64,000 nucleotides of DNA, taken from NCBI GenBank assembly GCA_016868315.1, contig VGHE01000008.1:62001-126000 (forward strand), given 5' to 3'. Position numbers and translations under genes: made by a program. The notes under the pieces are model-generated. The model was not told where the DNA came from, did not search any database, and saw only the letters and a list, made by a program, of their open reading frames with translations. The DNA comes from Betaproteobacteria bacterium (GTDB lineage Bacteria; Bdellovibrionota_B; Oligoflexia; Silvanigrellales; Silvanigrellaceae). This document shows positions 44,371 to 51,016 of this stretch, piece after piece. Numbering within the stretch: position 1 is the stretch's first letter; each line of letters opens with the position of its first letter.

Positions 44371-45339
44371 TCAGTTGCAAGAAGGCGGACGATTTGGTGT
44401 TCCTGGTGGAGGGCATCTGAATACACTCATTTCCTGACCGTCGTTGAATTCAAGGGTGAGGCCGCCATGAATCCAGATGTAATTGCTGAGGCGGTTGGGA
44501 GGATCGGCAGGATTCACGGGCGGCAAGACATCAAAGCGTGCGCGCGCCAGAAAGAGCGTGAGGGTCATGTAGTCTGGCACAAATGCACCACTGTTCTCTC
44601 CATACAAACCCTGCAAAAACCGTTGCCGATCGGTAAAGTAGACACCACAAAGGACTGCACCCCAGTGATTCAACGCAGCACGGCTCATTGAACCATCTGC
44701 TTGAACAATTCGCCGCGGTACCTGACGTTGAACAATCTCGCCGCGTGCAGTGTTGAGATACTTCACAACTGGCCGACTGCCCGCAGCACATTCCACAGGA
44801 CAAATGCTGTCGCGTCCGGCATCAGCATCCACTCCACCCCAGTTACCTATCGCGTTGCGCGGGTGGCGCGGCGCTTCCATCACGCCACCCCGTCCTGTAG
44901 GCAGAGCCAATCCAGCGGGAATCTCCTCACAGGCATTCACAAATGCTTGCGAGGGTGCACCACCGGCGTCGAGCCCGAATCCAATCCCATCTGTTGGAAC
45001 ACCCGCAAGAACACCAGCCGCAGGATTGCAGGTGTAATTTGCAATATCTGCGCGGTCGCCAGCGTTGAACTGAAGAATACAGCCACGACGCTGATTACCA
45101 ATATTTACAGAAACTGAGGTTTGGAAAACCCGCCTCACATCGCGCAACAAATTCATCAGATCCGCGTTGGCGTCGGCTGCGACTTGTATCGTTTTAGCCG
45201 TGGCCATGTAGTCGCGCAGGAGTGAGCCTGATGCCGTCATGAGAATGAGGGTCAGGCTCACGCCAATCATGAGCTCCACAAGTGTGAAACCGGCTTGCCG
45301 CTCTGCCTTCCTTTGCAATGAACGGGTCTCCATGCTCAT
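44371..45339 (-). CDS. Type IV pilin-like (pseudopilin / PilW-like) protein
   Basis: A 322-residue protein with the class III prepilin signal GFTLVELMIGVSLTLILM at residues 17-34: glycine at the cleavage site, Phe +1, Glu +5, then a hydrophobic helix. The length fits minor pilin PilW. Six or more cysteines (RRGCIL, YTCNP, NACEE, ICPVEC, LCGVY, FRCPPP, SCN) indicate a disulfide-rich globular head. It lies 7 bases downstream of the Hint-domain gene and is the last of three coupled genes. It should be processed by a prepilin peptidase and placed at a pilus or pseudopilus tip. Start ATG at 45339 or 45333. Confidence 0.85.
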   Translation of the reverse strand: MSMETRSLQRKAERQAGFTLVELMIGVSLTLILMTASGSLLRDYMATAKTIQVAADANADLMNLLRDVRRVFQTSVSVNIGNQRRGCILQFNAGDRADIANYTCNPAAGVLAGVPTDGIGFGLDAGGAPSQAFVNACEEIPAGLALPTGRGGVMEAPRHPRNAIGNWGGVDADAGRDSICPVECAAGSRPVVKYLNTARGEIVQRQVPRRIVQADGSMSRAALNHWGAVLCGVYFTDRQRFLQGLYGENSGAFVPDYMTLTLFLARARFDVLPPVNPADPPNRLSNYIWIHGGLTLEFNDGQEMSVFRCPPPGTPNRPPSCN

Positions 45340-45346
45340 GCCCGCT

Positions 45347-47824
45347 TCACTTGCTCGAGGCTTTGAGTTGCAACATATTTTGTATAACCAAATCGCCTGT
45401 GACTACTCCATCGGCCAGCACATAATGCAGTTCAGGGTAGTCGGCGGGACCCTCAAGTGCCAGATTGACCACCGTGCGCCCGAACTCTCCCAATTCGACA
45501 GATTGAACAGGGAGGAACGCCTTTTGAGCCCTCAAAATCTCCACACCTTTTTTCAGATCCTTGGCCTGCACCCAACCGCGCCGAGTCATGAATGGGTGCG
45601 AGTCGGTCACCTTCACCACACGATCGCCCACACGCACATTCAGGAGATGCTTCAATTCTGGGCCGATGGTCAATTTGGTGATCTTTGCAGGGAGTTTGGT
45701 GACTGGATTGAAAACAAACTCGCCCATCTTGAGCTGTGTGATCAATCGATCCGAGCCATCCGCCATGCGAATCCGGGTAGACTCATCGAAGCAGCCATCA
45801 TTGTTTCGGCACACAAAACCAGCTTGATCGCGCGTAATGAAGGTGTAAGAACATTGTCTGGGATCTTCGGCTTTTTTATACACGAAGTACGCACATGTTT
45901 GAGAGGTGTAGCGCTCTGCCTCCACGGGAGCACTCAACGCTTGTAAGCGATAAACCTTGAAGGTTCTCGTGGTTCCTGCATCAATAACGGCACCAGTGTC
46001 AGGGTCTACAACCTTGTCAGTTGCCCCTCGAAGTTCCATGGCATACGGATTTCCAGCAACAAAACTTGCACCCGGTGCTTGCATCTCGGCGCTCTTGAAG
46101 TTTTCAAAGGCATGGCGCAAAGGGTGGTTCATTGGATCTGATGGTTGCAATGGCACAGCCGTTGGATTGACACGGTTAATCAACCGTACCGGATTGTTTG
46201 CCCAGCGGTCACGCCCAGCAATAAACGCATCGTCGACTTCCAATGCAGCAATGGCCATTTGTAAGGTTGTTTCTGCGTGCCGACCCGCCACCTGCGGAGT
46301 GAATACCGCTGTTTTGTTGTTGAGACGCGCTTCTTCTGCTCGCACCAAGTCGCGCACGTTCTGCACCCACTGGTCACTACAACTCACCTGGAGAGCACGG
46401 TCTGCATACTTCACATTGGGAGCCTCGGCTGCTGTAACAGGCTCAATAGTCACATCCTCACTCACACAGCGGGCGTTGAAGCGAGTGTTAAGATGCTCAC
46501 GCGGCACATAAACTTTCGTGCAGAAATCCGCTCCGGCACCGGTTGACCCTGCTGAACCGCAACCGCTCTTGTAGTCGTTGTACCACTCTTGCGGCGACTT
46601 ATTTGGGGTAGCCGGATTACGCTGCTTCAACCACTCAACTGGTTGTGATTTGCTCCCTGTTAAGTAGTACTTAAATTCTGGACCACCAACATTTTTCAAC
46701 TTTGGCGTCACACCCACGAAGTATGAATTAGCCTGCTCAGCAGCTGTAAAGCGCTCGCGGCGCACAACTAATTGCTCGCTGATATACTGCCCGCGTCCAC
46801 CCGCATTCGGGCGCCATGAGTCAGCTGCACCCGAGACAGCAACATTGAGCCCAGCTCGACCGCCGCGAACATGGCGCTGGCTTGCCGGAATATTGGGGTC
46901 GTTTGACATATAATAAGGAATGAGACGCTCGCGCAGAGGAGCCAAAACCGCATAATCCTCTTCCTGCGCAAGCGCAGCGAGATTTGGAATTTCTCTTTCA
47001 AATTCATCCGCCAGATTCCCATCCGGCCGAGGTTCAAGTTCGGTTATAACGTAGCGCTGACCAACGCGACCGCCGCCACGCGCTGCAAATCCAATTGTTC
47101 CGCTTGCACTTTGTGCCACCGTTTGAGGGCGCATATAGAAGCAGGTATCTGCCGCGCCGTAACGTCCCAGGAGGCCGCGGTTTCCGTCCGAGGCTGCACC
47201 CAAATTCACTTTTGCTTCAAGAGAGGAAAAGTATGTTCCATTGGCTGCTCGTGGGCGCTGTGCTTTGATGAAAGCAAAATTTCGCTCAGTCACGAGTGCA
47301 TCGCCGCTCCCCGAACGCTCTGGCGCAGGATAGCGAACGAATTTAACTTCAACCAAGACACGGTCGTTGACCACAACTCCGTTTGCATCTTTGCGTGAGA
47401 CTGGAACACAGACGTCAACAACTTCGCATCCCTGGCTCGGGCAAGTTCGCTTGAAGCGCCAAGATGCGTTCGCATTGGCGCAATCAAGAGCTGGCATAAC
47501 AGTTGTGATGTTCAAACAACCGCCTCGCGTATACCTCGAGGAATTGACAGGATTGCCGTTGATTTGTGGCTCAATCACACGGCACCCAGCGGTGGAATTG
47601 AAGTACAGCGAACCGTTGGTAATCAGCTGTGTGACTGACTGCAGTGCCGTTTCATTCACTCGGCGGTCGACGTCTGCTGCTGTTTCCTGAGTCCGCGCTT
47701 TTCTGTTGTCGCGCAGCGACTGGATGACTGCACCGGAAGACAGTGCCAAGACCGAGGTGAACACAAGAATACTTGTGGTCGATGTCCCCCGCTGATTTCC
47801 CCATCGCAAACTGAATCCAAACAT
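45347..47824 (-). CDS. Pilus-associated protein with C-terminal Hint (intein/hedgehog-type) domain
   Basis: The ATG at 47824 follows GAGGAG by 7 bases. The N-terminus has one hydrophobic helix after a basic stretch (residues 14-36, STTSILVFTSVLALSSG), like a PilX- or pseudopilin-type anchor. A long, cysteine-rich extracytoplasmic region follows (about 40-675). From C678 a Hint domain begins: CFDESTRIRMADGS with the nucleophile cysteine, then VTDSHPF (TxxH block B, H743), RGWVQAKDLKKG, and HYVLADGVVTGDLVIQN near the C-terminus. Hint domains self-cleave, so the protein may be processed at this cysteine and the N-terminal part released or linked. It lies between two pseudopilin genes of one operon. 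Confidence 0.82.
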   Translation of the reverse strand: MFGFSLRWGNQRGTSTTSILVFTSVLALSSGAVIQSLRDNRKARTQETAADVDRRVNETALQSVTQLITNGSLYFNSTAGCRVIEPQINGNPVNSSRYTRGGCLNITTVMPALDCANANASWRFKRTCPSQGCEVVDVCVPVSRKDANGVVVNDRVLVEVKFVRYPAPERSGSGDALVTERNFAFIKAQRPRAANGTYFSSLEAKVNLGAASDGNRGLLGRYGAADTCFYMRPQTVAQSASGTIGFAARGGGRVGQRYVITELEPRPDGNLADEFEREIPNLAALAQEEDYAVLAPLRERLIPYYMSNDPNIPASQRHVRGGRAGLNVAVSGAADSWRPNAGGRGQYISEQLVVRRERFTAAEQANSYFVGVTPKLKNVGGPEFKYYLTGSKSQPVEWLKQRNPATPNKSPQEWYNDYKSGCGSAGSTGAGADFCTKVYVPREHLNTRFNARCVSEDVTIEPVTAAEAPNVKYADRALQVSCSDQWVQNVRDLVRAEEARLNNKTAVFTPQVAGRHAETTLQMAIAALEVDDAFIAGRDRWANNPVRLINRVNPTAVPLQPSDPMNHPLRHAFENFKSAEMQAPGASFVAGNPYAMELRGATDKVVDPDTGAVIDAGTTRTFKVYRLQALSAPVEAERYTSQTCAYFVYKKAEDPRQCSYTFITRDQAGFVCRNNDGCFDESTRIRMADGSDRLITQLKMGEFVFNPVTKLPAKITKLTIGPELKHLLNVRVGDRVVKVTDSHPFMTRRGWVQAKDLKKGVEILRAQKAFLPVQSVELGEFGRTVVNLALEGPADYPELHYVLADGVVTGDLVIQNMLQLKASSK

Positions 47825-47851
47825 AACCAATCTCCTCAAAAAACAAAGAAA

Positions 47852-48991
47852 TTAGCGAGCGACAATAGGCACAGGATCCGCACATTCCTCTCGGCATTGG
47901 TAGAGCCACAAAGGCGCAGCAATGCACACTGGACGAAGTCCATTTACGGGAATGGGAGGACGGTTGCTGCAATTCGGAACGGACACTCCAATTTTTTCAC
48001 TTGAAAATTCCTTCATCGTTTTGAAAGCAAGTTGCTTCTTCGATGCCACAGAGCTCTCCGCATTGAGAACCGTATAAAGATTGAGCCGCACATTCAAAGT
48101 GCGATGCATTTCGTTGACTGCTTGATTGCAAGTTATGGCCTGTCCCGTGTTGGAGTTCCGGAACGTCGCTGTCGCTACCGCCAAACCCAACACCGATGGG
48201 TTGTCTATCACTTCGAGCTCACGTGCTGCAGCACCATTGACCACGTTGCCCGTACGTGAAAAAAGATTGCCTACAAATGCAAAGCACATGCGAAAACTCG
48301 ATAAATTATTGAGGCTACTCACTCCCGCCCGGGGGGAGAGGTAATTGACACCGTCATTGGTGATGTCAGGGGTTAATGGTCGCTGAGGAGCTCGGTTGCC
48401 ACCCTGCCCCGAACACGTATCAACCCAATTGCAAAACTCGCGCGCAGCACCCTGTGAGTCTTCGAGGACGCCCTCGTTGGCATTGCAAAAACTGGCGAGG
48501 TTGGCATTGGCATCCATAATTGCGCTCGGCCTAACTAAACGCGTGCTGAACGGCACAAGTGCCCCCCACGCAGCACCACCTTGGTTCAAGCGCCCCGTTA
48601 ATGGATTCGCGGCCACCTCAGCATAATCCAAAGTGGAAAGCGCCATACGCATGTCTGCGCCTAGCGTGCGGTTGTTGAATGCCTGGTCGTTCGCCGGGGG
48701 GCCACCCGCAAGGACTGCATCATTACTTGCAAAGGCGAAGCGTAGCGCATCGCTGCAATCTTGCGCACCCGCATGAGCAACCCACTGCATTAACTTCGAG
48801 TAGTAAAGACGAAGTCTGCTGCTCGCAAACGTTTCAAAAAACAAATGAGGGCCAGCGGTATCGCGAGCCCGCGCGCTCACACGCGCCTTGTTGAGCACCA
48901 TAAACGAACCGCCGAACACGATGATGAGGATGGTCATTCCGACCATCAACTCGATCAAAGAAAATCCAGATTGTTTTTTGAGGCCTCTCAT
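47852..48991 (-). CDS. Type IV pilin-like (pseudopilin) protein
   Basis: A 379-residue protein with prepilin motif SGFSLIELMVGMTILIIVFG at residues 9-28 (Gly at cleavage, Glu at +5). The globular part carries about ten cysteines (DCSDA, SFCNAN, EFCNW, DTCSG, RMCF, ITCNQ, PNCSN, PVCIA, YQCREEC). ATG at 48991 is preceded by GGTGAG; a TTG three bases earlier is possible. It is the first of three genes (gaps 27 and 7 bases) and lies behind a sigma-28-like promoter. It probably forms the tip complex of a type IV pilus or a type II-like system with its two partners. Confidence 0.85.
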   Translation of the reverse strand: MRGLKKQSGFSLIELMVGMTILIIVFGGSFMVLNKARVSARARDTAGPHLFFETFASSRLRLYYSKLMQWVAHAGAQDCSDALRFAFASNDAVLAGGPPANDQAFNNRTLGADMRMALSTLDYAEVAANPLTGRLNQGGAAWGALVPFSTRLVRPSAIMDANANLASFCNANEGVLEDSQGAAREFCNWVDTCSGQGGNRAPQRPLTPDITNDGVNYLSPRAGVSSLNNLSSFRMCFAFVGNLFSRTGNVVNGAAARELEVIDNPSVLGLAVATATFRNSNTGQAITCNQAVNEMHRTLNVRLNLYTVLNAESSVASKKQLAFKTMKEFSSEKIGVSVPNCSNRPPIPVNGLRPVCIAAPLWLYQCREECADPVPIVAR

Positions 48992-49038
48992 CAAGACTCA
49001 CCAAACGCCAAGGGGCGGTCGGCAACCTCCAAAGTGCT

Positions 49039-49065
49039 ATATCGGCTGATTTTTATAAAATTTGA
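49039..49065 (-). promoter_or_regulatory. Sigma-28 (FliA)-like promoter of the pseudopilin operon
   Basis: Read on the minus strand: TCAAATTT, exactly 11 bases, GCCGATAT. Against TAAAGTTT-N11-GCCGATAA this is 13 of 16 with exact spacing. The start of transcription would be near 49030, about 40 bases before the ATG at 48991. Confidence 0.6.
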
Positions 49066-49816: not shown

Positions 49817-50926
49817 TCAGTACCCCATCATGAAGCGCTCGAGTTCAAATCCACTCGGCTTGAGCTCGAAATTGCGAATGATTTGTTCGCGCACTGTTTC
49901 GCTTTTTTTATCTCTTAAAAAACTTTGATGTTGCAGAAGATAGGCCTGCATTTCGTTCGTCAAAATATAGGGATCACTCGTATCAAATATTTTCGCTACG
50001 AAAAATTTGAGTCGCTCGAGGCTGTTCTGACTGTCTCCCAAGGTCTGACCAACCACCTTCCGAAAATCTTCTGATTGAAAATACAAACCATGCAGAAACT
50101 CGTGCGATGGCACCCCGGTAAAAACACTTGGAGCGCTGAAACTCAGAAAGTACTTCCAGGGCTGAGCCGACATCCAGGACCAAAGCCTTTGCTCATCGGC
50201 CAAAGGCTCACCCGCTTGTAACAGCAGCTGAACAGCGATTTCGAAATCCTCTCTTCGTAAATTCGAGCCCTGCCAGAATCGGAGCAAAGGATTGGTGCGA
50301 TGCTGCTCAATGGTGAGAATTTTATTCCCCTGTTCAACGTACGATACAACGCGCCCCAGCGCATAATTGAACTGCCTGTTCCCTTGAGAAACACAAAGCA
50401 AGGTTTCAGGAAGCTCTAGTACTGCACCGCAAACCAAATCAATTTCACTGCCCCGCGCTGCGACTGCTCCCTGCAAACCGATATCAAGCCACGAGTCAAT
50501 TGGCTGCGCACCAGCGAGCTGCGCAATACTTGGCCATGAATGAGGCTTCTTTGCCTCTGAAGCCTGCAGCTTCTGCCACTTCTGTTCTTGCTGGGCTTCT
50601 TCGATACGCCGCAGGCGCTCACAAGAAAATTCAGAACCCAGGGAACAACTTTGATCCAAGAAGCGCTTGAATTCGGCCGGGGCTGAGGAGTTCCAGGCCC
50701 AACTCACCATGCTCCAATCCACACATTGCTCTGTGGAAGCGGAGGTGGTCTCCCGGCACTCCAGCGCCAGTTGCTCGAGCAGGGACTCCTGGTCTCGGAC
50801 AAAGCTATCGGCTTTAAATCCCTTGGGATTTTTGGGCTTAAAGGGTGAAGCTTGAAGACCGACCACCACAGCAACAAGCGAGGCTGCACAAAAAACCAGC
50901 AGTGCCAGCAGCCCCTTTTTTTTCAT
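49817..50926 (-). CDS. Membrane-anchored HExxH protein, candidate metallopeptidase (369 aa)
   Basis: One N-terminal membrane helix (residues 5-25) and a periplasmic body. VPSHEFLHGLYF contains H275-E276-F-L-H279, a zinc-peptidase motif, and NEMQAYLLQH offers a third ligand (E325), 46 residues later, as in gluzincins. The first part has cysteines that may pair (ALECRET, EQCVDW, QSCSLG, FSCERL, DLVCGA, LLCVS). I recognise no family, so the activity is an inference from two motifs. It is translated together with the metallo-beta-lactamase-fold protein, and divergent from the LOV kinase. Confidence 0.7.
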   Translation of the reverse strand: MKKKGLLALLVFCAASLVAVVVGLQASPFKPKNPKGFKADSFVRDQESLLEQLALECRETTSASTEQCVDWSMVSWAWNSSAPAEFKRFLDQSCSLGSEFSCERLRRIEEAQQEQKWQKLQASEAKKPHSWPSIAQLAGAQPIDSWLDIGLQGAVAARGSEIDLVCGAVLELPETLLCVSQGNRQFNYALGRVVSYVEQGNKILTIEQHRTNPLLRFWQGSNLRREDFEIAVQLLLQAGEPLADEQRLWSWMSAQPWKYFLSFSAPSVFTGVPSHEFLHGLYFQSEDFRKVVGQTLGDSQNSLERLKFFVAKIFDTSDPYILTNEMQAYLLQHQSFLRDKKSETVREQIIRNFELKPSGFELERFMMGY

Positions 50927-51016
50927 CCTGCAAATACCCCTTACCAACTCGTAAATTTCGCGGCTGTCCCCTCGACCCCCAGAACACTATTGTGCCCCAT
51001 TGAGAGACGTAAAGAC

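Follow-up and report, generated by a model that had tools for sequence, protein, structure and literature searches.

A predicted autoprocessing Hint domain on a minor-pilin-like protein of an Oligoflexia bacterium

What does a Hint domain do at the C-terminus of a pilin-like protein? The question is raised by a 64-kb stretch of contig VGHE01000008.1 (assembly GCA_016868315.1), here called the window, in which three consecutive genes on the minus strand, separated by gaps of 27 and 7 bases, form one unit: prepilin A, an 825-residue protein that ends in a Hint domain, and prepilin B. The unit is taken to consist of these three genes because the genes that border it encode a metallo-beta-lactamase-fold protein and, at the opposite end, a heavy-metal P-type ATPase. 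The assembly (3.24 Mb in 27 contigs, 94.8% complete) belongs to the class Oligoflexia of the phylum Bdellovibrionota, related to the predator Bdellovibrio; among named organisms, an uncultured Silvanigrella is closest to it.

Minor pilins prime and cap type IV pili, and we know of none with autocatalytic chemistry. The answer we prefer, and to which we give somewhat better than an even chance, is that the trio would form the tip complex of a type IVa pilus, whose GspK/PilX-like cap would cleave itself at the N-terminal junction of the Hint domain. If the cap does cut itself, the cut would be an irreversible, protease-independent switch for pilus assembly, adhesion or release, and it would provide a testable physiological job for a bacterial Hint domain that has no toxin to release. 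Pili reportedly matter for predation in Bdellovibrionota (Evans et al. 2007, cited in PMC2797640).

47852..48991, minus strand: prepilin A, class III minor pilin/pseudopilin, 379 residues (KKQSG/FSLIELMVG), PF07963 at 30.9 bits, also recovered in the genome scan
45347..47824, minus strand: 825-residue pilus-tip-like protein with C-terminal Hint domain (open reading frame, Pfam, AlphaFold2 model, structure comparison)
44371..45339, minus strand: prepilin B, class III minor pilin/pseudopilin, 322 residues (ERQAG/FTLVELMIG), PF07963 at 27.4 bits

The original prediction had placed class III prepilin-like proteins on both sides of the 825-residue protein. Both open reading frames are present, and both prepilins exceed the curated cut-off of PF07963 (N_methyl), 21.2 bits. 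The longest frame of the middle gene starts at TTG 47839 (830 residues), while the ATG at 47824, preceded by GAGGAG, yields 825 residues, so the numbering of C678 used below is correct.

A Hint fold with an altered C-terminal end

45392..45793, minus strand: Hint domain, residues C678 to D811
45791..45796, minus strand: predicted scissile junction Gly677/Cys678; Gly-Cys in 49/49 relatives where the region is present
45596..45607, minus strand: block B motif T740-x-x-H743; T in 48/50, H in 50/50
45380..45397, minus strand: signature G810-D811-L-x-x-Q815, replacing the intein His-Asn; invariant in the family, with D811 aligned to the last intein residue

The nearest Pfam family is PT-HINT (PF07591), which matches the protein alone with 25.9 bits, just below the cut-off of 27.7, and reaches 29.3 bits, above it, in the genome search. 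A Hint domain with a nucleophilic Cys and a TxxH motif had been proposed from the sequence, along with structure prediction as a check, and the model agrees. AlphaFold2, given a 16-row alignment, returned a predicted local distance difference test score (pLDDT) of mostly 80-95 across residues 680-820. When compared with known structures using VIA-align, the model matches the Ssp DnaB intein (1mi8) with Z 20.1 and 1.4 A across 130 residues, a domain of Clostridium thermocellum of the bacterial intein-like (BIL) class (2lwy) with Z 19.2, and Hedgehog (1at0) with Z 17.9. The predicted horseshoe Hint fold can thus be regarded as secure for residues 678-811. In the structural alignment C678 corresponds to intein residue 1, and C678, T740 and H743 all lie on catalytic positions.

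The other end of the domain differs from that of inteins. D811 is aligned with the last residue of the inteins RecA (440), GyrA (198), gp41-1 (125) and DnaE (159), so the His-Asn pair that ends an intein is Gly810-Asp811 here. Where inteins have a C-terminal Asn followed by Cys, Ser or Thr at position +1 of the C-extein, this protein reads G810-D811-Leu812 and stops after a tail of 14 residues. The catalytic near-terminal Asn of the original prediction could only be N816, the sole Asn near the terminus, which lies five residues past D811 in a tail helix outside the domain. This candidate was rejected because the position is beyond the domain end and is variable, with Asn in 9 of the 50 family members described below.

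Given Gly-Asp instead of His-Asn, and no C-extein, splicing is not expected; this ending instead predicts N-terminal thioester chemistry at Gly677/Cys678. Judged by sequence and model, the domain is probably active at that junction. C678, aided by T740 and H743, would attack the carbonyl of Gly677 and form a thioester by an N-S acyl shift, which water or a small nucleophile would then resolve, corresponding to the first half of protein splicing only. The predicted products are a pilus-bound ectodomain of 677 residues ending in Gly and a separate Hint piece of 148 residues.

Conservation of the Hint family and its possible chemistry

The Hint domain was searched for in 58 genomes of the class (a search at phylum level gave the same 58, without Bdellovibrio). 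A match at E up to 1e-10 is found in 36 of them, with up to eight per genome. A separate scan of the genome contigs with restrictive motif patterns gave 27 loci, a count that does not measure distribution. Conservation was counted over 50 gene-called members of the main type. Asn787 and His800 are present in all 50, while G810, D811 and Q815 are each kept in 50/50 of the main family, in 13/13 short secreted Hint proteins and in both outgroups. Further, an Arg five residues N-terminal of Cys678 is kept in 44 of 47. The N-terminal parts are very divergent; outside the genus the Hint region alone aligns, and even with the closest ortholog identity is 78% over the Hint domain against 49% over the remainder.

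This pattern bears on whether the domain does any chemistry at all. A folded but inactive structural cap would fit the Gly, not His, at the penultimate position. However, about 50 divergent proteins all keep the nucleophile and the block B residues. A domain with a structural role only would have no need of this, and we consider an inactive cap quite unlikely.

It also bears on cleavage at the other side of the domain, where Asp811 would cyclise and release the 14-residue tail. Some inteins do allow an Asp here to cyclise (PMC4031507), and G810, D811 and Q815 are invariant. Against this, the tail is short and beyond Q815 variable in sequence, and the penultimate His is missing, making such a cleavage highly improbable.

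The 14 residues beyond D811 are typical of a family in which the median is 19 and the maximum 35. That PT-HINT is the nearest Pfam family could suggest a pretoxin Hint that releases a polymorphic toxin, and the two share a Hint fold in bacterial surface proteins. But no domain follows the Hint domain in any of the 50 members (0/50, at most 35 residues), and the protein has neither a C-terminal toxin nor His-Asn. A pretoxin role is extremely unlikely, and toxin release was rejected since no C-terminal domain is there to be released.

In its chemistry the protein resembles the Hog/Hint domain of Hedgehog (1at0), with which it shares a C-terminal Hint domain, a Gly-Cys junction, TxxH, the lack of a C-terminal Asn and, as predicted here, cleavage at the N-terminal side only. 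It differs in being bacterial, in having no sterol-recognition region and in an identity of only about 14%. A Hedgehog-like transfer, in which an external amine or hydroxyl (on a neighbouring subunit, a glycan of the own surface or a target cell) receives the Gly677 thioester and becomes covalently attached, would agree with the invariant junction, comparable to the Gly and Cys conserved in Hedgehog (PMC5874633), with the conserved Arg before the Cys, and with a C-terminal Hint domain that has nothing to splice to. Still, neither a sterol-recognition region nor another acceptor module follows the Hint domain, no acceptor is known, and the cysteine-rich partner of other families, described next, is absent here; we regard transfer as unlikely. 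A contact-triggered form of it, a thioester warhead in which the Gly677 carboxyl would move from the Hint Cys to a nucleophile of the contacted surface, so that the tip is welded covalently to the target cell and the Hint piece shed, is in our view very unlikely.

The partner is a family of transmembrane-anchored proteins of about 280 residues with four conserved cysteines, whose genes adjoin most Hint genes outside the window's genus (L031:1985-2926, L032:2263-3096, L038:11234-12139 and others). Four scanned members gave no Pfam family above cut-off. No member is found in the window's genus, including the window's own genome, and the family was dropped as a candidate acceptor or inhibitor for that reason. 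Upstream of the operon, at 49817-50947 on the minus strand, the window encodes a 376-residue protein with an N-terminal transmembrane anchor and no Pfam match, which by hidden Markov model comparison is unrelated to this partner family.

The short secreted Hint proteins have about 255-300 residues and a signal peptide, and most end in VGDLxWQNxL (L117-L122 and L125-L127, in Silvanigrella-like and other Oligoflexia genomes). Their genes lie in a largely conserved cassette with a transmembrane protein of about 250 residues, a lipoprotein-like protein of about 470 and a protein of about 200; the partner of these short proteins shows no detectable relation to the 280-residue family (hhalign probability 1%). 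The same GD-x-x-x-Q ending is also seen in uncharacterised proteins of distant phyla, in Enterobacter sp. BIGb0383 (L056:4888-6525) and a Lachnospiraceae bacterium (L057:4240-5820).

Among described Hint domains, the BIL domains, defined in 2003, are close to the family. These too are stand-alone Hint domains in non-conserved secreted or surface proteins, with Cys1 and TxxH, and their C type also comes from the phylum Bdellovibrionota; Dori-Bachash et al. reported this type in 2009 for Bdellovibrio bacteriovorus (cited in PMC9185962, PMC2797640 and PMC3403396). A-type domains have a conserved C-terminal His-Asn (PMC7765530), unlike the Gly-Asp...Gln of this family (Gly-Asp in 50/50). B-type domains do without the C-terminal intein motif, have the other intein motifs in common and cleave at the N-terminal side (PMC7765530), and resemble the present family in lacking His-Asn. 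The Gly-Asp...Gln type may be the C-type BIL, a type linked to a PPS-1 domain (PMC9185962). This subtype, with its G-D-x-x-x-Q end, could supply new N-cleaving or ligating domains for protein chemistry.

Pilin-like features and the pilus machinery

47786..47824, minus strand: predicted class-III-like leader MFGFSLRWGNQRG/T, cleavage G13/T14, and behind it a hydrophobic helix that lacks Glu5; most family members show this pattern, and G13 does not vary within the genus

Most members of the Hint family begin with a short leader with basic or polar residues, followed by Gly and a hydrophobic stretch without Glu5. This is the pattern of GspK-type caps; GspK lacks Glu5, as does the GspK of the type II secretion system (T2SS) of this genome. 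With the GspK/PilX minor (pseudo)pilins the protein shares the class-III-like leader, the Gly and hydrophobic helix without Glu5, the large size and the position beside genes of other minor pilins. In contrast to them it has 825 residues with a Hint domain and no T2SSK sequence match. The clearest pilin-Hint fusion seen is at L113:2716-4170, where the protein with the Hint domain starts as canonical class III prepilins do (GFGMIE), with Glu5.

The neighbours of the Hint genes tell more. Canonical class III prepilins with Glu5 make up 24 of 132 same-operon neighbours but 0 of 355 other genes at the same loci (Fisher p 5e-15, an optimistic value because the test counts related genomes as independent). 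Such neighbours occur across six families, and one close group does not explain this spread. Within the genus the order prepilin-Hint-prepilin is retained in two genomes, G049 and one copy in G048, so the search for the operon in relatives that had been suggested with the sequence found it there. In one genome a tandem pair of similar prepilin-like Hint proteins is accompanied by a third copy, incomplete and located where the contig stops (L037:8601-12565).

Which machine would the trio serve? The genome has one prepilin peptidase gene, a T2SS cluster (secretin, E, F, GspG, a ComGF-like subunit, and J-like and GspK-like proteins), a PilB-PilT-PilC cluster, and one PilA-like pilin, whose gene lies where contig C4 ends. 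Besides the T2SS pseudopilins and the PilA-like pilin, the N_methyl scan of the genome detected only prepilins A and B, and no other minor-pilin set. Type IVa pili require minor pilins for priming (PMC7248040, PMC7541494). As no other set was found and pseudopilins for the T2SS are encoded separately, the trio is the most likely source of type IVa minor pilins and is best read as the minor-pilin and tip set of that pilus. That it serves a T2SS pseudopilus instead might be argued from the equivalence of GspK and PilX (PMC7248040) and from the presence of a T2SS in the genome. Yet pseudopilins G, J and K, along with an additional ComGF-like subunit, are already encoded in the T2SS cluster, and we hold this assignment to be even more improbable than cyclisation of Asp811.

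Sequence and genome inventory suggest that the single prepilin peptidase would process A, B and the large GspK/PilX-like cap without Glu5, and that A, B and the Hint protein would be assembled as the tip of the pilus. We think it fairly likely that the 825-residue protein is located at the tip of a type IVa pilus. Cleavage activity, its timing, the tip location and the biological role are what we infer. A large protein at the tip would resemble the tip adhesin PilY1 in its possible role, but no sequence similarity was found, and a pilin-like helix of its own would anchor the protein. In the genome (94.8% complete assembly) there is no match to PilY1. We know of no Hint domain in PilY1.

Several points weigh against a self-cleaving type IVa pilus tip. 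The genome is incomplete, at the level given above, and divergent prepilins can escape N_methyl. In many relatives the cysteine-rich partner replaces prepilin neighbours or accompanies them, and a small number of family members begin like lipoproteins or signal-peptide proteins, so the Hint domain is not confined to pili. In G048, two additional copies have no prepilin neighbours. Finally, residues 1-670 folded alone have a mean pLDDT of 37.8 and no PDB match above chance, though at such confidence the absence of GspK or pilin matches means nothing. The full model has a helix at 19-69 and strands at 73-210, at low to moderate confidence. No T2SSK match is found in the protein at E up to 1; such families diverge fast, while the GspK of the genome's own T2SS does match. 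The pilus-tip role put forward in the original prediction is plausible from the gene inventory; the models did not confirm a pilin fold.

In searches of the literature we found no paper joining Hint domains with pili or pilins. What we describe joins a known autoprocessing fold, changed in its C-terminal signature, to a minor-pilin-like cap. The fusion to a pilus tip appears new, whereas the domain is probably of a known kind, since a Hint type from Bdellovibrio, the C-type BIL, was published in 2009.

A FliA-like site upstream of the operon

49039..49065, minus strand: FliA-like site TCAAATTT-N11-GCCGATAT, with its end 47 bp upstream of the prepilin A start codon

The site was scored at 16 positions against the FliA consensus TAAAGTTT-N11-GCCGATAA. 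The match of 13/16 that had been reported for it (49065-49039) was reproduced, and only two sites in the window, on both strands, reach this score at N11 spacing. The orthologous operon in G049 has TCAAATTT-N11-TCCGATAT (12/16) 47 bp before the start codon, and that in G048 has TAAATAGT-N11-GCCGATAT (12/16) at 51 bp. The element is thus conserved in position in three genomes.

Control by FliA, as first proposed, is helped by this conservation and by a FliA encoded in the genome (264.7 bits). Of the eight flagellin genes, however, the six that were checked (L132-L137) have no good FliA site upstream, the best scoring 9-11/16. Since the checked flagellin genes lack the motif, FliA control of the operon is plausible but weak. 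Further matches to the pattern precede citrate synthase and other genes, and no motility regulon emerges. Two strong sites lie elsewhere in the genome, one of 15/16 before an FtsZ-like protein (L139, G000:C4:89290-89316) and one of 14/16 before a REC-TPR protein (L138, G000:C1:237094-237120).

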